The position numbers and the translations under genes are program-made. The notes beneath the pieces were generated by a model. It made no database searches, had not been told where the DNA came from, and saw only the letters and a program-made list of their open reading frames with translations. Source: Pseudomonadota bacterium (GTDB lineage: Bacteria; Pseudomonadota; Alphaproteobacteria; Acetobacterales; Acetobacteraceae). Taken from it: a stretch of DNA of 39,117 nucleotides. Positions 15,200 through 39,117 of the stretch are shown piece after piece; positions within the stretch are counted from its first letter, which is position 1; the number at the start of each line of letters is the position of its first letter. Location of the stretch: assembly GCA_021846225.1 (NCBI GenBank), contig JAJZCG010000016.1, forward strand, positions 1 through 39,117. Direction: 5' to 3'.

Positions 15200-15236
15200 A
15201 CCGGCCATCCCGAGAGGGGTGGCCGGTTTTTCTTTT
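15200..15236 (+). terminator. Rho-independent terminator of the cydAB operon
   Basis: A 12-base stem (ACCGGCCATCCC pairing with GGGGTGGCCGGT, one G-T pair) with a GAGA loop is followed by TTTTTCTTTT. It is a textbook intrinsic terminator placed right after the 32-residue ORF. Confidence 0.93.
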
Positions 15237-15302
15237 GGCCTATGTTCTGGCGCGCTTGGCCGCGCGTTCCCATCTATCCTGCATAATGTGGGAGTGGCGG
15301 GC

Positions 15303-17318
15303 ATGAGGAACAGGCTGGGCGAGGCGACATCGCCCTATTTGCGGCAGCACAAGGACAACCCGGTGCATTGGCACGTCTGGGGCGCCGAGGCGCTGGAGGA
15401 GGCGCGGGCGCGCAATGTGCCGATCCTGCTCTCCGTCGGCTATGCCGCCTGCCACTGGTGCCATGTGATGGCGCATGAGAGCTTTGAGGATGAACGCGTC
15501 GCGGCGCTGATGAACGCGCATTATGTGAATATCAAGGTTGACCGCGAGGAGCGGCCGGATATCGACCAGATTTACATGAGCGCCCTGCATGCCATGGGTG
15601 AACAGGGCGGCTGGCCGCTGACCATGGTGCTCACCCCGGCCGGGGAGCCGTTCTGGGGCGGCACTTATTTCCCACCGGAGCCGCGTTTCGGCCGCCCAAG
15701 TTTCACCCAGGTGCTGGGCGCGCTGGCCAAAGCATGGGAGACGGATCGCGCGCGCATCAGCGAGACCGTCGTCGCGATGAACCGGGCGCTGGCGGCCAGC
15801 GCGGCGGCGCGCCCCGGCGCGCTTCCCGGCCCGCAAGCGCTGGATAATGTGCGCGGCTGGTTCCTGCGCGGCATGGATTGGCGGCATGGCGGCAGCGGTA
15901 GCGCGCCGAAATTCCCCAACGTGCCGATTTTCAGGTTTTTATGGCAGGAGGCTTTTCGCGCTGGGGATGCGCGGGCGGGCGAGGCGGTGACACTGCTGCT
16001 GAACGCCATCTGCCAGGGTGGAATTTATGACCATGTTGGCGGCGGCTTCGCCCGCTATGCCACGGACCAGGCCTGGCTGATCCCGCATTTCGAGAAGATG
16101 CTCTACGATAACGCGCTGATATTGGACTTATTGGCGCTGGCGCATGCGCAAACCGGCGCGGCGCTTTACGCGGCGCGCGCGCGCGAAACCGTGGCCTGGC
16201 TGCGGCGCGACATGCGCGAGGGAGGCGCGTTCGCCGCCTCGGAAGATGCCGACAGCGAGGGGGTGGAAGGCAAATTCTATGTGTGGGAGGCAGAGGAGAT
16301 AAGCGCGGTTCTGGGCGCGCAGACCGAGTTTTTCGGCGCGCATTATCCGCTGCCCGCGCATGGCAACTGGGAGGAGCGGATCATCCTGGAACGCAAGACC
16401 CCGCTGGGCGATGCCGCCACCGAGCTGGCGCTGGCCGAATGCCGGGAGAAGCTGCTGGCGCGGCGGAGCACGCGCATCCGCCCCGGCCGGGATGACAAAA
16501 TTCTGGCTGATTGGAACGCGCTGACCATCGCGGCGCTGGCGCGTGCGAGCTTCGTGTTTGGCGAGCCGGGCTGGCTGGATGAAGCGGCGCGGGTGTTTGA
16601 CTTCATCCTGGAGAAAATGGGCGGGCCGGATGGCCGCATCGCCCATGCCTACCGGGGTGGGATCATCTCCGCCGCCGGGCTGCTGGAGGACCAGGCAGCG
16701 ATGCTGCGCGCCGCGCTGGCACTGTACCAGGCCACCGGTGAGGCCGCGCGCCTGGCCCAGGGCTTGCGCATTTTGCGTGCGGCGGAGGAAAACTTCAGCG
16801 ATGGGGCAGGGGCTTTCTACATGGCGGCGCATGACGCGGCGGATGTGCCAGGGCCGCGTGGGCGCAATGTCATCGATGGTCCCACGCCTTCCGGCATCGG
16901 GCTGATGGCGGAGAATTACGCGGTTATGTTTCATCTCACGGGTGATGCAACATACCGCGCCAGGGCCGAGGCGGTGCTGGCGGCCTACGGCGGGCGGGTG
17001 GAGGCGCTGGCGGCCTCGCCGGTGCTGCTCGCGGCGCTGGATATGTTGGAGAACGCCAGCTGCGCGGTGGTGACCGGCGGCGCCGGGGAGCTGGCCAGCG
17101 CCGCCCTGGCCGCGCCCGGCCCCGCCGTGGTGGTGTTGCAGGTCGCGGCGGATGCCGTGCCGGCGCCCGATCATCCGGCATACGGCAAAACTTCGGCAGT
17201 GCCCGCCGCCTTCGTCTGCCGGGGCGGCACCTGCGCCCTGCCGGTGGCAACCCCAGGCGCGCTGATGGCATTGCTGCATCCGTTCCCGAAAACAGGAGTA
17301 TCTCATGAACCGGCGTAA
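15303..17318 (+). CDS. DUF255 thioredoxin-fold protein (YyaL/SPATA20 family)
   Basis: A protein of 671 residues from ATG 15303; the frame is open from 15219, but homologues begin at about NRLGEATSPYLRQHKDNPV, as here. The N-terminal thioredoxin-like DUF255 domain (about 1-160) has a C-H-W-C pair (Cys50, Cys53 in GYAACHWCHVMAHESF) and VDREERPDIDQIYM. The rest is an alpha/alpha-barrel-like region (GIYDHVGGGFARYATD, HFEKMLYDNA, DDKILADWN) resembling six-hairpin glycosidases/epimerases. The biochemical role of the family is not established. Its end overlaps the exported msrB gene by 14 bases, hinting at a link to thiol or methionine redox repair. No signal peptide is seen, so it is probably cytoplasmic. 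Confidence 0.9.
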   Translation: MRNRLGEATSPYLRQHKDNPVHWHVWGAEALEEARARNVPILLSVGYAACHWCHVMAHESFEDERVAALMNAHYVNIKVDREERPDIDQIYMSALHAMGEQGGWPLTMVLTPAGEPFWGGTYFPPEPRFGRPSFTQVLGALAKAWETDRARISETVVAMNRALAASAAARPGALPGPQALDNVRGWFLRGMDWRHGGSGSAPKFPNVPIFRFLWQEAFRAGDARAGEAVTLLLNAICQGGIYDHVGGGFARYATDQAWLIPHFEKMLYDNALILDLLALAHAQTGAALYAARARETVAWLRRDMREGGAFAASEDADSEGVEGKFYVWEAEEISAVLGAQTEFFGAHYPLPAHGNWEERIILERKTPLGDAATELALAECREKLLARRSTRIRPGRDDKILADWNALTIAALARASFVFGEPGWLDEAARVFDFILEKMGGPDGRIAHAYRGGIISAAGLLEDQAAMLRAALALYQATGEAARLAQGLRILRAAEENFSDGAGAFYMAAHDAADVPGPRGRNVIDGPTPSGIGLMAENYAVMFHLTGDATYRARAEAVLAAYGGRVEALAASPVLLAALDMLENASCAVVTGGAGELASAALAAPGPAVVVLQVAADAVPAPDHPAYGKTSAVPAAFVCRGGTCALPVATPGALMALLHPFPKTGVSHEPA

Positions 17319-25700: not shown

Positions 25701-26930
25701 CTATACAGCGGCTGCGACAGTGGGTGTTCTTCTGTTTTTTCCTGATATGGCCTGTAAAATATCCTTGATCCGGCAGATGCCGGCGATTTTTCCATTGTCA
25801 TGGATGAGCGCCGGACGGTCAGATATTTGCTGGGCGTTCACAACATGCTTCAGCGGCATTTCAAGCGGCACACAGGCGATGAAATCAGCCGGAGCGCCGG
25901 GAAAATTCTCCCCCTCGGCATAGGCAAAGGCAATGTTCCGCCCGCCACAGGTAACATTTTTCAGCCTGTCCCCGGCGTCGAGTTCCAGGGTGTAGTCCGC
26001 GCCGCAGTGGAATGCGATGCTGTTTCCCTGGCGGGCGAAATCGCCAAGCGGGAGCATGACGGAAGCAGCCGTGAGCGCATTGAGCGGGTTCATGTGCTGC
26101 ACGAACTCGGCCACATAATCATTTTTCGGCCGCAGGATAATATCCTCCGGGCGGCCCGTCTGCACAATGCGTCCGCCTTCGAGAATGGAGATATGGTTGC
26201 CGATTTTGAGTGCTTCATCCAGATCGTGGCTGACAAAGAGGATGGTTTTCTTCAAGCGCTTTTGCAGCGAGAGCAACTCATCCTGCAGTTTGGTGCGGAT
26301 CAGCGGGTCAAGCGCGGAGAAGGGTTCGTCCATCAGCAGAATATCGGCGTCGGTCGCCAGCGCGCGGGCCAGGCCGACACGTTGCTGCATGCCGCCCGAG
26401 AGTTCGCTGACATAGCGATCCGCCCATTGTGTCAGCCCGACCAGTTCGAGCTTTTCATCGACGGCAGCTTTGTAGTCGCGTGGTTTGAGCCTGCGCAGTT
26501 CCAGGCCGAAGCCTACATTTTCGCGCACGGTCTTCCAGGGCAGCAGCGCGAATTGTTGAAACACCATCGCCACGCTCTCGGTGCGCAGCTTGCGCAGCAT
26601 CGCGGGGCTGGGTTGGGCGGCATCGAGCATCCCATCCTTGTGCTGCACGAGAATCTGCCCGCTGGTCACCTGGTTCAACCCGTTCACGGCACGCAGAAGT
26701 GTGGTTTTGCCAGAGCCGGAGAGGCCCATGAGCACGGCGATTTCGCCTTTTTCAACCGTGAGGTTGGCGTTGCCGACACCCAGAACCGCCTTGGTTGAGG
26801 CGATGATCTCGGCCCGGCTTTTACCCTGGCGGATTTCCTCGATAACCCTGGCCGCCTTGATACGATCCGATTTTTTGTTGCTGACACCGAAGACGATATT
26901 AACGTCGATGAACTGGATGGCGATGCTCAT
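25701..26930 (-). CDS. choV: Choline ABC transporter, ATP-binding subunit
   Basis: A protein of 409 residues in the ProV/ChoV class. An N-terminal extension typical of betaine/choline ATPases is followed by Walker A GLSGSGKTTLL, Q-loop VFQQFALLPWKTV, signature ELSGGMQQRVGLARAL, Walker B ILLMDEPFSALDPL and the switch His in VSHDLDEA. The block EFVQHMNPLNALTA is characteristic of ChoV. The C-terminus (GKIAGICRIKDIL) resembles a degenerate CBS regulatory region. It overlaps choW by 4 bases (ATGA). It energises choline uptake through ChoW. Confidence 0.92.
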   Translation of the reverse strand: MSIAIQFIDVNIVFGVSNKKSDRIKAARVIEEIRQGKSRAEIIASTKAVLGVGNANLTVEKGEIAVLMGLSGSGKTTLLRAVNGLNQVTSGQILVQHKDGMLDAAQPSPAMLRKLRTESVAMVFQQFALLPWKTVRENVGFGLELRRLKPRDYKAAVDEKLELVGLTQWADRYVSELSGGMQQRVGLARALATDADILLMDEPFSALDPLIRTKLQDELLSLQKRLKKTILFVSHDLDEALKIGNHISILEGGRIVQTGRPEDIILRPKNDYVAEFVQHMNPLNALTAASVMLPLGDFARQGNSIAFHCGADYTLELDAGDRLKNVTCGGRNIAFAYAEGENFPGAPADFIACVPLEMPLKHVVNAQQISDRPALIHDNGKIAGICRIKDILQAISGKNRRTPTVAAAV

Positions 26931-27811
26931 GATTGACTCGTCTTATCTTCAGAGGGACGGAATACGCGGTCGAGGATGATGGCGAGAATGACGATGGCAA
27001 GGCCGGATGTGAAACCCTCACCGATCTGGACGGTTTCCATGGCATCGACCACCGGCTCGCCCAATCCGCCCGCGCCAACCAGTGCGGTGATCACCACCAT
27101 CGAGAGGCTGAGCATGATAACCTGGGTAAGGCCGGCCAGGATCATCGGGCGGGCGGCGCGCAGTTCAACTTTCAGCAGGAGCTGGGTCTTGGTCGCGCCA
27201 AATGCCTGTCCTGCCTCGATGAGCGGGCGGGGCACGGAGGAAATGCCCAGATAAGTCAGACGTATTGGTGTGGGCAACACGAAGACGATGGTGGAGATGA
27301 GGCCGGGCACGGTGCCCAGGCCGAAGAGCACCAGGGTGGGGATGAGATAGACGAAGGTCGGCAGCGTCTGCATGAGGTCAAGCGCCGGATGCAAGATGCG
27401 ATACAGCCAGGGGCGGTGCGCGGCGGCAATGCCGATGGGCACGCCGATGAGCATGCAGAAGAATGTGGCGTAGAGGATCAGTGCCAATGTCAATACGGTA
27501 TCGGACCAATATCCCTGATTCATCACAAACACCAGTGACAGGCCGACAAACAAGGCAAGCTTCCAGGATTTGCGTGTAAACCACACTGCGGCGACGAAAA
27601 TGCCGATCAGCAGCGGGCCTGGTATATCGAGCATGAGGTTCGCTGTATTGTCCAGCAGAAAGCCGAGGCCGTCGGAAATGACGTTGAAAAAACCGGCGGC
27701 GTTTGTTTTGATGAAGTTGATGTACCAGATTGCCCACGGGCCGACGGGTATCTGATTTGCCGTGATCCATGTTTCCAACGCGTTCAAGGTATCGGCCTCC
27801 ATAGCTTCCAT
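26927..27811 (-). CDS. choW: Choline ABC transporter, permease subunit
   Basis: A permease of 294 residues with about seven hydrophobic helices. The binding-protein-dependent transport signature GQAFGATKTQLLLKVELRAA is in the second half, and LMQTLPTFVYLIPTLVLFGLG is characteristic of ProW/ChoW proteins. An alternative start three codons in (ATG at 27802) has a GGAAG site. It lies between choX (88-base gap holding a hairpin) and choV (4-base overlap). Its partners identify choline as the main substrate. Confidence 0.93.
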   Translation of the reverse strand: MEAMEADTLNALETWITANQIPVGPWAIWYINFIKTNAAGFFNVISDGLGFLLDNTANLMLDIPGPLLIGIFVAAVWFTRKSWKLALFVGLSLVFVMNQGYWSDTVLTLALILYATFFCMLIGVPIGIAAAHRPWLYRILHPALDLMQTLPTFVYLIPTLVLFGLGTVPGLISTIVFVLPTPIRLTYLGISSVPRPLIEAGQAFGATKTQLLLKVELRAARPMILAGLTQVIMLSLSMVVITALVGAGGLGEPVVDAMETVQIGEGFTSGLAIVILAIILDRVFRPSEDKTSQS

Positions 27812-27899: not shown

Positions 27900-28865
27900 T
27901 TAGTTAGCCAGAGCGCTGGTCACCGCGGCAAGCCCCGGCTGGCCGGTTGTCGTCACGACATTGGCAAGCTCGGTCTGCACCCATGCCGGGTTGGCTTTCA
28001 ACCAGGTCTTGGCGACGGCATCAGCCTTCTCGCCCTTGATCTGGATCGAATACATCATCGCGTTTTCAGCCTCGATCGGCAAGTTGAAATTCTTCAGCAT
28101 GGTGCCGACATTCGGGCACTGCGCCGCATAGCCATGCCGGGTGTTGATGTAGATTTTGGCAGCCCCTTCATTCGGGCCGAAGAATTCATGGCCGCCGCTC
28201 AGATACTGCAGGCTGTAGGTCACGTTCATCGGCTCAGGCTCCCAGCCGAGGAAGACGATCGCCTTCTTCTGCGGATACAGCCGCGCAACCTCGGAGAGCA
28301 TGCCGGCCTCGCTCGATTGCACGAGGTGGAATTTGCCCAGGCCGAACTTGTTCTCCTGGATCATCTTCAGGATATGCTCGTTGCCGTCGTTGCCCGGCTC
28401 GATGCCGTAGATGTTGTAGTTGAGCTGCGCGCCGAATTTCTGGATGTCGGCGAAGGATTTCAGGCCTTCGTTATAGAGATAGGTTGGCACCACGAGGGTA
28501 TATTTGGCGCCGGTCAGGTCGGGGCCGATCACATCGATTGTGCCGGCTTTCTGATAGGGGGCGGTGATGGAATCCATCGAAGGCGTCCAGTCATCCAGGA
28601 AAATATCGAGCTGGTTGTTCTGTAGCCCGGCGTAGGCGACCTCTTCGGCGAAGAGTGTGCTCTTGGGGGTGTAGCCCAGCGCGGTCAGAATATTCGAGAA
28701 CACGGCGTTCTGCACTTCATTGTCAGTCCAGCCGATATCGGCCATGCGGACGGTCTGGCAGGATTGCGGATCAGGGGCGGCGTGCGCGGCGGTGGCGGGG
28801 GCTGTGGTCAGGCCCAGGCAAAGAAAACCTGCGGCGAGCATTGGGGCGAGGGATGTTTTTTTCAT
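27900..28865 (-). CDS. choX: Choline-binding periplasmic protein
   Basis: A protein of 321 residues from ATG 28865, chosen because AAAGGA lies just upstream (a TTG 15 bases earlier is in frame). The signal peptide is residues 1 to about 29 (cleavage near AAHA-AP). The aromatic choline box of Sinorhizobium meliloti ChoX (Trp43, Trp90, Tyr119, Trp205, plus Asp45 and Asn156) is matched with a constant offset of three: Trp46 and Asp48 in IGWTD, Trp93 in LDDWTPS, Tyr122, Asn159 and Trp208 in FLGWEPEPMN. This strongly supports choline (or acetylcholine) rather than betaine or proline as ligand. It is the first gene of choXWV, divergent from the bet genes. Confidence 0.95.
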   Translation of the reverse strand: MKKTSLAPMLAAGFLCLGLTTAPATAAHAAPDPQSCQTVRMADIGWTDNEVQNAVFSNILTALGYTPKSTLFAEEVAYAGLQNNQLDIFLDDWTPSMDSITAPYQKAGTIDVIGPDLTGAKYTLVVPTYLYNEGLKSFADIQKFGAQLNYNIYGIEPGNDGNEHILKMIQENKFGLGKFHLVQSSEAGMLSEVARLYPQKKAIVFLGWEPEPMNVTYSLQYLSGGHEFFGPNEGAAKIYINTRHGYAAQCPNVGTMLKNFNLPIEAENAMMYSIQIKGEKADAVAKTWLKANPAWVQTELANVVTTTGQPGLAAVTSALAN

Positions 28866-28959
28866 GAAGCGTCCTTTCAAGCGGAGTGGGAAATAAGCAG
28901 TTTTGGCCGCGGTTCTGGTGCCGCGCGTTTAGCCGGAAGTTGCAGATCACATGAGACTA

Positions 28960-28973
28960 AATGGCCGTTCAAG
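28960..28973. promoter_or_regulatory. Weaker BetI-like site on the choX side
   Basis: AATGGCCGTTCAAG agrees with ATTGAACGTTCAAT at 10 of 14 positions, with one half-site (CGTTCAA) intact. It lies about 95 bases upstream of the choX start. Suggestive only. Confidence 0.35.
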
Positions 28974-29162
28974 TGAGATTCGTGTCCTTAAAGCGAGAAT
29001 ACCGATAGTCCGGCTTTTTGTTTTTCACGGCTATTTTTAGCCTTGCAAGCCCCTATCATCGGCATTGGGGCGATACTTACTTGTGTGATTCCGACGCATG
29101 ACTTGAATGAAATAGAGAAATGCGACGAAAAAGGGGCGGATAAATATTTTTGATTTTTTCTG

Positions 29163-29181
29163 TTGATTGGTTGTTCAATTA
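29163..29181. promoter_or_regulatory. Putative BetI operator upstream of betI::betB
   Basis: TTGATTGGTTGTTCAATTA contains the dyad ATTG-N6-CAAT (29166-29179) and closely resembles the BetI operator as I recall it from E. coli (TTGATTGGACGTTCAAT). It lies 57 bases upstream of the likely start, where a repressor would block the promoter. Confidence 0.6.
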
Positions 29182-29237
29182 CGTGTTTTCTGTGGGAAAG
29201 CAAACAAGCAAAAACTTCGCGGCTGCCGCGTGAAATC

Positions 29238-31346
29238 ATGATAGGGGTTATCATCATTACTACATTAGTCCAGCAAAACAACGGCTCAACTGAAGATTCG
29301 CGGCGCGGACAGATCATTGATGCGGCAATAGATACCATCGCCGATCTTGGTTATGTGGGGGCTACGCTGGCGCAGATCGCAACGCGCGGCGGTGTCTCGG
29401 CGGCGCTGATCTCGCATTATTTTCAGGACAAAAACGGCCTGATGGAGGCTGTGTTCCGCAAGCTGGTGCAGCGCGTGTCGCGTGGCGTGGTGGTGCGCCA
29501 GGGGCGGGCGCAAACGCCGCGCGCGCGGATTCAGGCGGTGATCGACGCGAATTTGGCGCCGCAAGAGTTTGATAGCCGCACCGCCATTGCCTGGCTGGCC
29601 TTCTGGGGGCAGGTGATACATATACCGCAGTTTCGCCGGATTCAGGTGGTGTATCAGAGCCGGATTCTCAGCAATCTGCGTCATGCGCTGCGGCCGCTCG
29701 TGCCGGCGCATGAGGTTCCCGAAACAGCGGCGATGATCGCGGCGATGATCGACGGGGTCTGGCTGCGGGCGACCTTATCGGACTGGAGTGAGACGAACAG
29801 CGATTCGGCGCGGTTGATGGTGAGCCATCTGGTGGATATGACGCTCGCCGCCGCGCAGGGCAAAATGCAGATTTTGCAGCGCGCCACGGGGCAGGTGCAA
29901 AAGAACTTCATCAACGGCGGGTTCATTAACGCAGCCGGTGGGGAGACTTTCGAGACGCGCAACCCGGCAACCGGGGCGGTGCTGAGCACGGTGGAAATTG
30001 CCGGCGCGCCTGAGATTGAGCAGGCGGTGGCAGCGGCGCGCGCGGGCCAGCGCATTTGGGCGCGCATGACCGGGGCGCAGCGCGGGCGCGTGCTGAACGA
30101 GGCGGCGCGGCTGCTGCGGGCGAAAAACAGCGAACTCGCCCTGCTCGAGACACTCGACACCGGCAAGCCGATTCAGGAGACCAGCGTTGTCGATGTTGCC
30201 TCCGGCGCTGATTGTCTGGAATATTTCGCAGGCATCGCCAGCGGCCTTGCCGGTGAGCAGGTGGATCTCGGCCCCGCCGCTTTTGGCTATACAAGGCGTG
30301 AGCCGCTGGGGATTGTGGCCGGCATCGGCGCGTGGAACTACCCGCTGCAGATCGCCTGCTGGAAGGCCGCTCCCGCGTTGGCGTGCGGCAATGCGATGAT
30401 CTTCAAGCCCGCCGAGATGACGCCGCTCACCGCGTTGCGGTTGGCGGAAATCTTCAAGGAGGCAGGTCTGCCCGATGGGGTTTTCAACGTGGTGCAGGGG
30501 TTTGCGGCCACCGGGCGGATGCTGACGCAGCACCCCGGCATTCATAAAATCTCCCTCACCGGCGAGGTTGGCACTGGCCGCGCGGTGATGGCTGATGCCG
30601 CCGCGTCGCTCAAGCATGTGACCTTGGAGCTGGGCGGTAAATCGCCGCTGTTGGTGTTTGAGGACGCCGATCTCGACAATGCCGTCTCCGGTGCGCTGCT
30701 GGCGAATTTTTATTCAGCCGGCGAAGTCTGCTCCAACGGCACGCGCGTGTTCGTGCATGAGCAGGTGCGCGACGAATTCCTGCGGCGATTGAAGCTGCGC
30801 ACCGAGGCGATGCGCGTGGGCGATCCGCTGGACCCGGCGACGCAGGTGGGCGCGCTGATCTCACCGGCGCATATGAACAAGGTGCTCTCCTATATCGAGG
30901 CCGGAAAAGCCGAAGGTGCCGCACTGGTGACCGGCGGCGCGCGCGCCCTCGCCGGGGCGCTGGCGCAAGGCTGCTTCGTGCAGCCCACGATCTTCGCTGA
31001 TTGCCACGACGAGATGAAGATCGTGCGCGAGGAGATTTTCGGCCCCGTGATGTGCGTGCTGAGCTTCAGTGATGAGGACGAGGTGGTGGCACGGGCGAAT
31101 GCCACGCGTTTTGGCCTCTCGGCCGGGGTGTTCACGCAGGATCTGACGCGCGCGCACCGGGTGATTGCGAATCTCGAGGCAGGCACCTGCTGGATCAATC
31201 ATTTCAACGTCACGCCGATCGAGCTTCCCTTCGGCGGCGTCAAGCAGTCCGGCCTGGGCCGCGAGAACGGCAAGGCCGCGATCGAGCATTATACGCAGAT
31301 CAAGAGCGTCTATGTGGCGCTCGAAAAAATCGACGCCCCTTACTGA
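29238..31346 (+). CDS. BetI::BetB fusion: TetR-type choline repressor joined to betaine aldehyde dehydrogenase
   Basis: One uninterrupted frame of 702 residues from ATG 29238. Residues about 22-205 are a full BetI: HTH region [32 protein letters not shown], then the BetI ligand-domain blocks [23 protein letters not shown] and [14 protein letters not shown]. Residues about 220-702 are a full BetB, which oxidises betaine aldehyde to glycine betaine with NAD(P)+: [33 protein letters not shown], catalytic Glu464 (LELGGKS) and Cys498 ([10 protein letters not shown]), [14 protein letters not shown]. The linker is only about 10-15 residues and no stop separates the parts. Met210 (ATG 29865, weak AGGG site) could give a separate BetB of 493 residues. 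The frame opens upstream with TTG 29163, but that codon lies in the putative operator, so ATG 29238 is preferred although its ribosome site is weak. betA follows after 18 bases. Confidence 0.88.
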
Positions 31347-31364
31347 GTTTTTTGGGATCTTGTG

Positions 31365-33026
31365 ATGGCTTCTGAACAATTTGACTATATCATCGTCGGC
31401 GCGGGTTCCGCCGGTTGCGTGCTGGCCAATCGCCTCTCGGCGGAGGCGGGGGTTTCGGTCCTGCTGCTGGAATACGGCGGGTCAGACCGCTCGATCTTCA
31501 TTCAGATGCCGAGCGCCTTGTCGATTCCGATGAACATGCCGAAATATAACTGGTTCTACGAAACCGAACCGGAGCCGCACCTCAACAACCGGCGGATGCA
31601 CACGCCGCGCGGCAAGGTCATCGGCGGGTCGTCCTCGATCAACGGCCTGGTCTACATCCGCGGCAACCCGCTCGATTTCGACGGCTGGGAGGAACTGGGC
31701 GCGAAAGGCTGGGCCTATCGCGACGTGCTGCCCTATTTCAAACGCGCCGAGGCGCGTGCCGAAGGCGGCGATGCGTATCGCGGCGGCGATGGCCCGCTGC
31801 ACACGCAATATGGTCCGCTGAAGAATCCCCTTCATAAAGCCTGGCTCGATGCCAGCGCCCAGGCGGGTTATCCACTCACCAGCGATGTCAACGGCTTCCA
31901 GCAGGAAGGCATGGGGCGCATGGACATGACCGTGTATAAAGGCACGCGCTGGAGTGCTGCGAATGCCTATCTGCGGCCGGTCCGCCATCGCAAAAATCTG
32001 GAGATACGCGCCCAGGCGCTGGCCACGCGCGTGCTGTTCACCGGCGGGCGCGCGAGCGGGGTTGCCTACCGGCAGGGTGATTTGGACAAAACCGCCACGG
32101 CCCGGCGTGAGGTGATCCTGGCGGGCGGGCCGATCAACTCGCCGCAGCTGCTTAAACTCTCCGGCATTGGCCCGGCGGCGGAGTTGCGCGCGCATGGGAT
32201 CGATGTGCTGGCAGACCGCCCCGGCGTGGGCGAGAACCTGCAGGACCATCTGGAGTTTTACTTTCAGGTGGCGTGCAAACAACCGGTGACGCTGTATTCC
32301 TCGATGAATCCGCTGGCCAAGGCGATGATCGGCCTGCGCTGGCTGCTGCGCCGCGACGGCCTCGGCGCCACAAATCATTTTGAGAGTTGCGGCTTCATTC
32401 GCTCGCGCAGCGGGATTCGCTACCCCAACATCCAGTATCATTTTCTGCCGCTGGCCGTGACATACGATGGCAAATCCCTCGCCACCTGCCACGGGTTCCA
32501 ACTGCATGTGGGGCCGATGCGCTCGAAAAGCCGTGGCCATGTCAGGTTAAAATCAAACAACCCGCTGGAGAAGCCGGAGATTTTGTTCAACTATATGAGC
32601 CACCCAGAGGATTGGGAGGAAATGCGCGCCTGCGTGCGGCTGACGCGCGAGATCGTGGCGCAGAAGGCATTCGATGCGTATCGCGGCGAGGAGATGCAGC
32701 CAGGTGCCGGCGTGGTCAGCGATGCGGCGATCGACGATTTCATCCGCGCCAAGGTGGAGAGCGCCTACCATCCCTCCTGCACTTGCAAGATGGGCAGTCC
32801 CGAAGACCCGATGGCGGTCGTGGACCCGCAGACCAGGGTGATCGGGGTCGAGGGGCTGCGGATCGTCGATTCCTCGATCATGCCGCGCGTGACAACGGGA
32901 AATCTCAACGCGCCAACGATCATGATCGGCGAGAAGGGCGCGGATTTCATTCTTGGCAAGCCGCAGCTCGCGGCTTCCAACGCACCCTATTTCGTGGCGC
33001 CAGACTGGGAGCACACGCAACGCTGA
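31365..33026 (+). CDS. betA: Choline dehydrogenase
   Basis: A GMC-family flavoprotein of 553 residues, membrane-associated in most bacteria, that oxidises choline to betaine aldehyde. The FAD motif IIVGAGSAGCVLANRL is at residues 9-24. GMC signatures are GKVIGGSSSINGLVYIRG and GGPINSPQLLKLSGIGP. The catalytic His469 sits in YHPSCTCKMG, followed by RIVDSSIMPRVTTGNLNAPT. ATG 31365 is preferred to the GTG one codon earlier. It is transcribed with the betI::betB fusion and closed by a terminator. A short basic/aromatic tail follows the GMC core, as in other BetA proteins. Confidence 0.95.
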   Translation: MASEQFDYIIVGAGSAGCVLANRLSAEAGVSVLLLEYGGSDRSIFIQMPSALSIPMNMPKYNWFYETEPEPHLNNRRMHTPRGKVIGGSSSINGLVYIRGNPLDFDGWEELGAKGWAYRDVLPYFKRAEARAEGGDAYRGGDGPLHTQYGPLKNPLHKAWLDASAQAGYPLTSDVNGFQQEGMGRMDMTVYKGTRWSAANAYLRPVRHRKNLEIRAQALATRVLFTGGRASGVAYRQGDLDKTATARREVILAGGPINSPQLLKLSGIGPAAELRAHGIDVLADRPGVGENLQDHLEFYFQVACKQPVTLYSSMNPLAKAMIGLRWLLRRDGLGATNHFESCGFIRSRSGIRYPNIQYHFLPLAVTYDGKSLATCHGFQLHVGPMRSKSRGHVRLKSNNPLEKPEILFNYMSHPEDWEEMRACVRLTREIVAQKAFDAYRGEEMQPGAGVVSDAAIDDFIRAKVESAYHPSCTCKMGSPEDPMAVVDPQTRVIGVEGLRIVDSSIMPRVTTGNLNAPTIMIGEKGADFILGKPQLAASNAPYFVAPDWEHTQR

Positions 33027-37700: not shown

Positions 37701-37788
37701 CCATGTGCCAATGCCGGGCCGGGTCATCCGTGTGACCATCACCGGACCGGTTTTCTACGATGCTGAAGGGATCAAGCTAGATGGCTGA
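34783..37788 (+). CDS. soxA: Sarcosine oxidase subunit alpha
   Basis: The large subunit, 1001 residues. An N-terminal ferredoxin-like fold region (about 10-95, FDGRRMSGLEGDTLASALLA, KYHRPRGI) has no iron-sulfur cysteines, as in known SoxA. A NAD-binding FAD/NAD domain begins at about 173 (VLVVGAGPAGLAAALAAV) and includes AAGEIERPLVFPDNDRPG. The C-terminal half (about 600-1000) is a GcvT/aminomethyltransferase-like folate domain (RNSAGIFDASTLGK-type block, VNAWSKLKPGRLRYGLLL, SFTGELGFEINVP, LRAEKGYIIVGQETDGTVTP) that channels the methyl carbon to THF. Overlaps soxD by 4 and soxG by 8 bases. Confidence 0.96.
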   Translation: MSQNFRLPTGGRVNRAKTINFTFDGRRMSGLEGDTLASALLANGEHLAGRSFKYHRPRGILSAGAEEPNALVGVGADEGHYSPNLRATQVELFEGLVAESQNRSPSLRYDWAGVNNLIWRFIPAGFYYKTFMWPRGAWTKFFEPRIRAMAGLGRAPRAPDATTYAQRYAHCDVLVVGAGPAGLAAALAAVQGGQRVILCDEQNELGGSLLSETDAAIDGIPAVRWLSETIAQLRSAGSVQILTRTTAFGYFPHNMLGLVERLTDHLPGAASGPRERLWQVRAKQVVLAAGEIERPLVFPDNDRPGIMLAGAARIYASRYGVKPGQRAVIVTAHDSAYRAALALYQAGVGIAAIADVRANPQGGWVDLARKAGLPVRAGCTITGTSGRLRVTGADLAPLAADGTVGASERVSCDLLLMSGGFTPSVHLFSQSRGKLVYDEALGAFVPGAPAEDCWVAGACRGVSLLSEVLADGFAKGASAARAAGGGPVPARSFATTQAPATGGGFAGALPHGKNPASVRAFVDFQNDSTAKDIKLAISEGLRSIEHIKRYTTTGMATDQGKISNMNALGIATDVLARPIAQIGTTTFRMPYTPTTFGVFAGYARGDLFDTVRRTPVHHWAQAQGAVFEDVSLWKRARYFPLPGEDMHQAVARECRAVRAAAGIFDASTLGKIEVVGPDAAEFLNRMYVNAWSKLKPGRLRYGLLLREDGFILDDGVIGRMSDECFHVTTTTGGAARVLTMMEDYRQTEFPELKVWLTSTTEQWAVIALQGPKAREILAPFVEGADISHAAMPHMSVVECRVAGVPARLFRVSFTGELGFEINVPADYGRAVWEAIFAAGQPAGLVAYGTETMHVLRAEKGYIIVGQETDGTVTPDDAGLSWAIGKAKPDFVGKRALARAGMGEGVQRKQLVGLLTDDPQVVLEEGAQLVADPAQPPPMTMLGHVTSSYWSATLNRSMALALVKNGRARIGETLHVPMPGRVIRVTITGPVFYDAEGIKLDG

Positions 37789-38335
37789 AACAATGGCGCG
37801 CCTGCACCCGCTGGCCGCGGTTAAAACCGTGGCGGACGCGCATTTGCTGGCGCAGGGGCCGATGGGCCGGTTCTCCTTGCGTCTGGCGGCCAACGCCGCG
37901 CCTGCGCCGCTCGGCGCGCTGGGGCTGAGCCTGCCGCTGGCGCCCTGCCGGGCTGCCCAGTCGGAAACCGCCGCCGCTCTCTGGCTGGGGCCGGGCGAGT
38001 GGCTGCTGCTCACCGCGCCGGAACGCGCATCGGCGGTTGAAGCCGCGTTGCGCGCGGAGCTTGCGGGGCAGGCGTTCTCTCTGGTCGAGATCAGCCATCG
38101 CCAGACCGGCCTCAGCCTCTCCGGTCCGCGCGCGGCGCAACGCCTCAACGCCGGTTGCCCGCTGGACCTTGATCTCGCGAGCTTCCCGGTTGGCATGTGC
38201 ACCCGCACCGTGTTCGCCAAGGCCGAGATCGTGCTCTGGCGCACCGGGGTTGAGGCCTTCCACATCGAGGTCTGGCGTTCCTTCGTGCCGTATCTGTGGG
38301 AGCTGCTCGTGATCGTGGGAGCCGAAACCTCATGA
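37781..38335 (+). CDS. soxG: Sarcosine oxidase subunit gamma
   Basis: A protein of 184 residues starting within the end of soxA. It has the folate-enzyme-like gamma fold: WLGPGEWLLLTAP near residue 70, EISHRQTGLSLSGPRAAQRLNAGCPLDLDLASFPVG near 105-140 and a C-terminal FHIEVWRSFVPYLWELL. It completes the heterotetramer. Its stop overlaps the sdaA start (ATGA). Confidence 0.93.
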   Translation: MAETMARLHPLAAVKTVADAHLLAQGPMGRFSLRLAANAAPAPLGALGLSLPLAPCRAAQSETAAALWLGPGEWLLLTAPERASAVEAALRAELAGQAFSLVEISHRQTGLSLSGPRAAQRLNAGCPLDLDLASFPVGMCTRTVFAKAEIVLWRTGVEAFHIEVWRSFVPYLWELLVIVGAETS

Positions 38336-39117
38336 TCAGCGTTTTCGAGCTTTTCAAGGTCGGCATTGGCCCGTCCTCGTCGCACACGATGGGACCGATG
38401 CGCGCGGCGCGCAATTTCACCGAGGCATTGCGCGAGGGCGGCCTGCTCGCGGCCACGGCGCGTGTGCGCACCGAGCTGCTCGGCTCCCTGGCCTGGACCG
38501 GCGAAGGTCACGGCAGCGGCAAGGCGGTTATTTTGGGTCTGGCGGGTGAAATTCCCGAGGAGATCGACCCGTCGCACGGCGAGGCGCTGATCCTCTCGGC
38601 CACGGCCGCTGGCCGGCTGCGCCTGGGCGGGACACATGAGCTTGCCTTTGTTCCTGAACAAGACATCATTTTTGACCGCCACTCCCCCACGCCGCGCCAC
38701 CCCAACACACTCAGCTTCAGCGCCTATGCCGCGGATGGCGCGTTGTTGCTGGCGCAGCGCTGGTGCTCCGTGGGGGGCGGTTTCGTGCTGCCCGAGGATG
38801 CGCCGGATGCCCCCGCGCAAGGGATGCAGGCGGTGCCTTATCCTTTCAACTCCGGTGCGGCGCTGCTGCGGCTGGGAAAATCGAGCGGCCTGCCGATTGC
38901 AGATATGGTTCTCGCCAATGAAACCGCCCTGCGCCCGCATGCGGAGGTGATAAATTATCTTGATCGCATCATTGATGTGATGATGGAGACGATTGACCGC
39001 GGCATGCACGGGCAGGGGATATTGCCCGGCTCGCTCAAAGTGCACCGCCGCGCCGCCGGTCTGCGGGAAAAGCTGGAGGCCGATGTGGGGCTGAACAACC
39101 TGGCGCCGCATGCGATC
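38332..39117 (+). CDS. sdaA: L-serine ammonia-lyase, 3'-truncated by the window edge
   Basis: A frame of 262 codons open to the right edge, starting at ATG 38332 inside the soxG stop. The N-terminal block SVFELFKVGIGPSSSHTMGPMRAA is the signature of the iron-sulfur L-serine dehydratase beta domain. GEGHGSGKAVILGL, PHPNTLSFSA-like RHPNTLSFSA, SVGGGFV, PYPFNSGAALL and GSLKVHRRAAGL follow. The alpha domain with its cluster cysteines lies beyond the window. It converts serine to pyruvate and ammonia, the last step of the sarcosine-glycine-serine route encoded here. Confidence 0.94.
   Translation, partial: MISVFELFKVGIGPSSSHTMGPMRAARNFTEALREGGLLAATARVRTELLGSLAWTGEGHGSGKAVILGLAGEIPEEIDPSHGEALILSATAAGRLRLGGTHELAFVPEQDIIFDRHSPTPRHPNTLSFSAYAADGALLLAQRWCSVGGGFVLPEDAPDAPAQGMQAVPYPFNSGAALLRLGKSSGLPIADMVLANETALRPHAEVINYLDRIIDVMMETIDRGMHGQGILPGSLKVHRRAAGLREKLEADVGLNNLAPHAI

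Follow-up and report, generated by a model that had tools for sequence, protein, structure and literature searches.

The window analyzed here, a 39,117-nucleotide stretch of DNA from a member of the Acetobacteraceae, carries a gene in which betI and betB are joined in a single frame (Table 1). Our frame reading of the plus strand runs uninterrupted from a TTG at 29163 to the stop at 31346, and the ATG at 29238 is more plausibly the start codon than this TTG, giving a product of 702 residues. The gene is followed immediately by betA and then by the sarcosine oxidase subunit genes soxB, soxA and soxD, and on its other side lie the choline transporter genes, with a serine hydroxymethyltransferase gene past choV (all assigned by NCBIfam). 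Taken together, the window looks like a region for the catabolism of choline to glycine. No sigma-70-like promoter was found in 28850–29300. A hairpin with perfect arms (CGCGGC and GCCGCG, 1 nt apart) lies at 29218–29230, between the operator and the start codon. Elsewhere in the window, a 699-residue protein with an N-terminal DUF255/Thioredox_DsbH domain is encoded at 15219–17318 (plus strand), and a frame of 444 residues at 37777–39111 (minus strand) had no match in Pfam (E ≤0.001) or NCBIfam (E ≤1e-10).Table 1. Features of the betI-betB locus, with positions numbered along the window.
Feature	Position	Strand	Remark
choV, choline ABC transporter ATPase	25701–26930	−	NCBIfam
choW, choline ABC transporter permease	26927–27811	−	NCBIfam
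choX, choline ABC transporter substrate-binding protein, divergent neighbor	27900–28880	−	NCBIfam
Weak second operator-like site	28957–28972		2 mismatches; upstream of divergent choX
BetI-type operator TTGATTGGTTGTTCAA (predicted)	29163–29178	+	exact match to TTGATTGNNNGTTCAA
betI-betB fusion gene	29238–31346	+	702 codons plus stop
TetR_N helix-turn-helix domain, residues 26–72	29313–29453	+	Pfam 41 bits, cut-off 24
TetR_C_6, BetI-type effector/dimerization domain, residues 94–203	29517–29846	+	Pfam 86.6, cut-off 27
Linker, residues 204–222	29847–29903	+	between the domains; 19 residues
In-frame internal ATG, residue 210	29865–29867	+	present in all four Acidocella-type copies
Aldedh domain (betaine-aldehyde dehydrogenase), residues 231–691	29928–31310	+	Pfam 582.8, cut-off 23
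Glu464	30627–30629	+	invariant in 32 aligned fused proteins, window's included
Cys498	30729–30731	+	invariant in 32 aligned fused proteins, window's included
betA, choline dehydrogenase, immediately 3' of the fusion	31362–33026	+	NCBIfam

Three Pfam families matched the 702-residue product, all above their cut-offs, and no others did. TetR_N together with the BetI-type TetR_C_6, both above curated cut-offs, places the N-terminal half in the BetI family. The second half exceeded the cut-offs of two NCBIfam equivalog models for betaine-aldehyde dehydrogenase, NF009725/PRK13252 (808.7, cut-off 593) and TIGR01804 (700.5, cut-off 668.6), as is typical of BetB; 57 NCBIfam families matched the fusion, and the best 25 of these 57 are aldehyde dehydrogenase models. 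From their common offset of 212 to E252 and C286 of the betaine aldehyde dehydrogenase (BADH) of P. aeruginosa, we infer that Glu464 and Cys498 are the catalytic residues, and the Cys and Glu pair conserved in BetB is thus retained. The sequence-only reading had described one frame with a complete BetI and a complete BADH with both residues kept, which Pfam, NCBIfam and the alignment confirm. It had also proposed a linker of 10–15 residues, and a linker is indeed present between the domains, although slightly longer than claimed. The AlphaFold2 model of the protein (32 sequences, pLDDT 82.3, pTM 0.68), with low confidence at residues 1–16, 338–353 and 650–688, has the last TetR helix at 188–216 and the enzyme from 223, where the first aldehyde dehydrogenase (ALDH) strand spans 223–225. 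The 50 PDB matches listed in a fold search with this model were all aldehyde dehydrogenases, so that the TetR fold is assigned from Pfam and from the model, in which this half is all-helical.

The fusion is conserved in related genomes. After four duplicates were dropped, 42 distinct complete fused proteins were obtained, the window's included. A search of the family gave matches at E ≤1e-150 in 29 of 299 genomes; 16 of these, including the window's own and representing 7 genera by group code, match from residue 1–19 to 702 in one frame and without a stop, and the remainder comprise one genome with a truncated TetR half (G092) and 12 that match over the enzyme only. The order search gave 28 of 395 genomes at E ≤1e-235, 27 of them fused throughout, besides G092; many of these had already appeared in the family search. 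At E ≤1e-190, 25 of 385 genomes of the class and 38 of 398 genomes of the phylum were retrieved (the window's genome counted in each), which added fused members from other families (G680, G681, G936, G1116 and G1132) and also split pairs with at least one in-frame stop. A scan of named genomes (best 80 of 512 relatives) contributed four Novosphingobium loci and others. The fused clade is mostly alphaproteobacterial, and named isolates within it include Acidocella aquatica, whose copy is 97% identical to the window's, and Novosphingobium. This identity places the window's genome in Acidocella or near it. The fusion is also present in Komagataeibacter saccharivorans, where a plasmid copy (L197, outside the 42) is annotated only as a betB of 676 residues, and the match in a second plasmid record of this species is likewise annotated as betB alone.

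That a sequencing or assembly artefact deleted a stop codon is practically inconceivable. The same frame recurs in 42 distinct proteins, some of them from isolates and on contigs of 2.6–4.75 Mb (L015, L016, L023, L169, L171, L172 and L191), which excludes an assembly or base-call error; a missed stop or indel was accordingly rejected. Within the clade, all members with a recognizable full TetR half in the fetched flanks are fused, and the split arrangement was found in more distant relatives outside it; separate genes are thus not the rule in all close relatives, a pattern that the sequence-only reading had said would count against the fusion.

The TetR tree unites the 42 fused rows in one clade, with an SH-aLRT of 98 in the quick version and support of 100/98 plus 100% of 200 bootstrap trees in the careful one, which was built without L183 and L034. 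In the ALDH tree, made from loci scoring at least 560 bits, all 42 fall in one 55-row clade (98), whose other members are one truncated row and 12 for which no TetR half was found; in both trees the Pseudomonas-type rows were thinned to 1 in 9. The fused rows need 7–8 label changes on the ALDH tree because the rows without a TetR half sit inside the clade, where they seemingly represent secondary losses. Independent fusions in separate families were considered and found unsupported, as the TetR tree gives a single clade.

The closest split relatives point to how the fusion may have arisen. In L139, which the ALDH tree places next outside the 55-row clade and the TetR tree keeps in the same group, betI ends in TGA and, after a short spacer, the betB ATG follows a few codons on in the same frame. 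L148, which shares the family code of L139, has betI and betB in different frames. The two trees differ on the immediate sister of the fused clade, which is L148 in the careful TetR tree (95/73) and L139 in the ALDH tree, and this leaves the precise ancestral arrangement uncertain. More widely, betB is in the frame of betI in 76 of 93 adjacent same-strand split pairs, or 22 of 39 when Pseudomonas-type loci are left aside. As an in-frame pair like L139 is separated by a single TGA, one stop loss is the likeliest origin. Most likely, therefore, the fusion has a single origin, in which betI lost its stop codon while the ancestral betB lay in frame a few codons downstream, and the old intergenic spacer would have become the linker.

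A tblastn search of 15 loci, with the TetR half as query, detected it in L139 (split) and, as a remnant, in L026 and L052, but in no other. In these two (L026:1504–3144 and L052:3001–4641, on the same contig), decay has left about the last 60 residues of the TetR half beside an intact frame for the dehydrogenase, and no operator-like site was found upstream. No TetR half was detectable in the fetched flanks of L027, L028, L030–L033, L057, L068, L145, L154 and L175, all of which belong to the fused clade of the ALDH tree. Among these, L027 has about 180 bp upstream, so that its loss is shown only by an in-frame stop, and L154 is a long branch of unsure placement; the contig that carries L029 starts within the enzyme, so that loss of its TetR half cannot be judged. 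In the four Acidocella-type copies, dN/dS is 0.10–0.17 for the TetR half and 0.03–0.065 for the ALDH half. Neither half is thus decaying among these copies, and both are under purifying selection in the window's close kin. Mean entropy over the helix-turn-helix core is slightly lower in the 42 fused rows (1.03 bits) than in the 46 split ones (1.24 bits), but the split set is more diverse and the helix preceding the core is more variable in the fused rows (1.44 versus 1.18 bits), so this comparison says little.

Upstream of the bet genes a BetI-type operator is predicted by sequence match. In the window's 2.69-Mb genome (97.8% complete), TTGATTGNNNGTTCAA occurs exactly only once, at this site. 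One further match, with 1 mismatch, is found in the genome (G000:C14:169–184, L200). The motif TTGAA-N6-TTCAA is present with at most 1 mismatch in all 42 fused upstream regions (250 bp), 30 of them exact. At the same tolerance it occurs in 3 of 294 coding windows, one of them exact, and in 9 of 840 mononucleotide shuffles, none of them exact. These counts are not independent, since the 16-bp motif was chosen after seeing these same, related loci and refined on them, and "upstream" starts at the position that matches window residue 17 in the alignment and so includes a few N-terminal codons. A 14-bp form of the operator fitted more poorly (30 of 42 at up to 2 mismatches versus 7 of 294 coding windows) and was set aside. 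The site in the window belongs to the asymmetric, ancestral type and differs from the symmetric motif by 1 mismatch. The asymmetric TTGATTGNNNGTTCAA is exact in 76 of 94 split loci (55 of 55 Pseudomonas-type and 21 of 39 others) versus 10 of 42 fused loci, among them the window, while the symmetric TTGAAY-N4-RTTCAA is exact in 22 of 42 fused and 0 of 94 split loci. A study on Ruegeria pomeroyi gives a palindromic betI box, ATTGACG-CGTCAAT, which has the TTGA/TCAA half-sites in common with our motif (PMC12442346).

Clade loci that lack the TetR half, or keep a remnant of it, have almost no operator left, with a site in 1 of 14 such loci, or 1 of 11 without the duplicate L052 and without L027 and L029, which have little or no upstream DNA. 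This near-absence is the best evidence that the fused TetR half still acts on DNA. Among 25 genomes from the fused clade, 12 have no TetR_C_6 copy besides the fused one, and in 10 the fused copy leads by at least 10 bits; in G130 and G1132 it scores within 4 bits of a second copy. No TetR_C_6 was found in G092, the genome with the truncated TetR half.

Operators are also frequently paired in front of the fusion. Two or more sites within 450 bp (at most 1 mismatch) occur in 28 of 42 loci with the fusion versus 6 of 94 with split genes (6 of 39 once Pseudomonas-type loci are set aside), and two or more exact sites in 10 of 42 versus 0 of 94. The contrast holds whether a divergent cho gene is present (24 of 34 fused versus 2 of 20 split loci) or absent (4 of 7 versus 4 of 71), a comparison that excludes one fused and three split loci with less than 800 bp upstream; as the fusion arose once, the contrast amounts in effect to a single comparison. 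The window itself has one strong site and the weak one, whose equivalent in A. aquatica has 1 mismatch. In L014, L015 and L017–L019, two exact operator-like sites lie 153–156 bp apart upstream of the fusion, one of the ancestral asymmetric type and one TTGAACATACTTTCAA.

BADHs are known as tetramers, and a tetrameric enzyme would bring together two TetR dimers, making the bridging of operators possible. The sequence-only reading had suggested that the oligomeric state of the dehydrogenase is imposed on the TetR dimer. The doubled operators lend this idea weak support and are compatible with a tetramer carrying two DNA-binding dimers, but do not prove it, and helical phasing of the operator spacings was unsupported, as random spacings reached the observed value in 15.5% of draws for 14 hand-picked lineage spacings and in 16.5% without three odd ones. 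One operator for each divergent promoter is the ordinary alternative and covers most cases without looping. We regard it as unlikely that two such dimers bridge operators across the divergent cho and bet promoters in a manner that the state of the enzyme could influence. If true, a metabolic enzyme would be a bivalent, possibly looping, repressor.

At the level of sequence, an intact BetI and an intact BADH lie in one chain, in a frame kept throughout one clade and behind a predicted BetI-type operator. The fusion is probably a single-chain, autogenous and choline-sensing repressor of choline catabolism joined to a functional-looking, intact BADH. Without choline, the BetI half would dimerize, bind the operator that separates the choXWV unit from the divergent betIB-betA unit, and repress its own gene. 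Binding of choline to the BetI half, a property assumed from its family, would release or weaken repression, and the same fusion molecules would then oxidize betaine aldehyde. The number of repressors would climb with that of enzymes, which should result in steep negative autoregulation and a fast shut-off once choline is gone. Weighing against this reading, the gene is present in only 4 of 38 genomes of the window's genus, where other matches are at most 46% identical, and several members have an internal ATG, so that free BetB may also be made.

The latter point leads to a rather unlikely alternative, in which each gene yields both the fusion and free BetB from an internal start, giving mixed oligomers with fewer DNA-binding arms. 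The internal ATG of the window could be the start of a free BetB in this organism, and an internal ATG with a Shine-Dalgarno-like stretch is present in L011–L014, L017–L019 and L044. The window's ATG, on the other hand, is preceded only by a partial AGGG and matched none of the Shine-Dalgarno patterns tried. Moreover, 14 of the 42 members lack an ATG in the stretch that begins 12 residues short of the TetR half's end and extends to the NPAT motif of the enzyme, and 8, from about four lineages (L021, L022, L024, L140, L168, L170, L172 and L176), lack ATG, GTG and TTG, the codons covered by the scan, with rare start codons outside it; in these 8 the enzyme is seemingly made only as a fusion. In the alignment, the first dehydrogenase strands are lost in Novosphingobium, L191 and L176. 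The loss of internal starts in about four lineages also speaks against a near-neutral stop loss, after which both halves would work as before and the joining would have brought no gain. This is somewhat unlikely in our view, although a single stop loss would have been enough given how often betB lies in the betI frame in split relatives, linkers are poorly conserved, and possible starts for free BetB survive in several members; within the fetched flanks, no member of the fused clade was seen to have separated its two halves again, and the operators are doubled across most of this clade.

A switch in which substrate, product or NAD(H) occupancy of the dehydrogenase alters DNA binding by the BetI half, as the sequence-only reading had envisaged, appears improbable. 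The covalent coupling and the operator before the fusion's own gene resemble trifunctional PutA (PMC5293562), and in the AlphaFold2 model the last TetR helix almost reaches the first ALDH strand. However, the Pro/Ala-rich, poorly conserved linkers of many other members argue against rigid allostery, Pfam gives three domains only with no membrane-switching part seen, and the BetI effector domain is intact, which makes choline sensing by the BetI half the simpler reading. Crosstalk from enzyme to repressor is possible but unsupported, and nothing in the sequence demands it.

Under the preferred reading of a choline-sensing, autogenous repressor, one molecule is apparently both gene switch and catalyst. 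A repressor-enzyme fusion with a TetR-family sensor, from a likely single stop loss, exists in cultivated bacteria (Acidocella, Komagataeibacter and Novosphingobium), and its fused members, beside split relatives and loci that lost the TetR half, form a natural series on covalent regulator-enzyme coupling in gene control. The fusion is easily overlooked, as both public plasmid records of K. saccharivorans give betB as the sole name at the match. In agreement with the sequence-only reading, which knew of no described example, no description of a BetI-BetB or TetR-ALDH fusion was found among the matches listed in the open-licence PubMed Central literature. The main text of PMC12442346 lacks the word "fused" and has "fusion" twice, both times for a cloning method, and in PMC7824335 "fused" is used of methyltransferase genes and of a solute molecule, while its Acidiphilium rows read proXWVbetBA, with betI missing.

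The separate BetI and BetB of bet operons belong to the same two families, with betI directly before betB in most split loci and a related operator, but are two proteins, whereas the fusion is one chain. The R. pomeroyi system (PMC12442346) is likewise an alphaproteobacterial, BetI-controlled choline catabolism with a palindromic box, but has two separate regulator genes, unlike the fusion. According to PMC5293562, trifunctional PutA carries an N-terminal DNA-binding domain on a catabolic enzyme and is an autogenous repressor of its own regulon; the fusion is like it in layout and in presumed autogenous control, with which the operator-like site before its own gene is consistent. The DNA-binding domain of PutA is a ribbon-helix-helix, in contrast to the TetR_N domain assigned by Pfam here, and its enzymes are a proline dehydrogenase domain and P5C dehydrogenase, whereas the fusion, with its three Pfam families only, has no proline dehydrogenase. 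P5C dehydrogenase is itself a member of the aldehyde dehydrogenase superfamily, PutA is the standard case of a repressor-enzyme fusion, and to our knowledge cases of a repressor fused to an enzyme of its own operon are few. No membrane switching is known for the fusion, which, unlike PutA, has an effector domain of its own.
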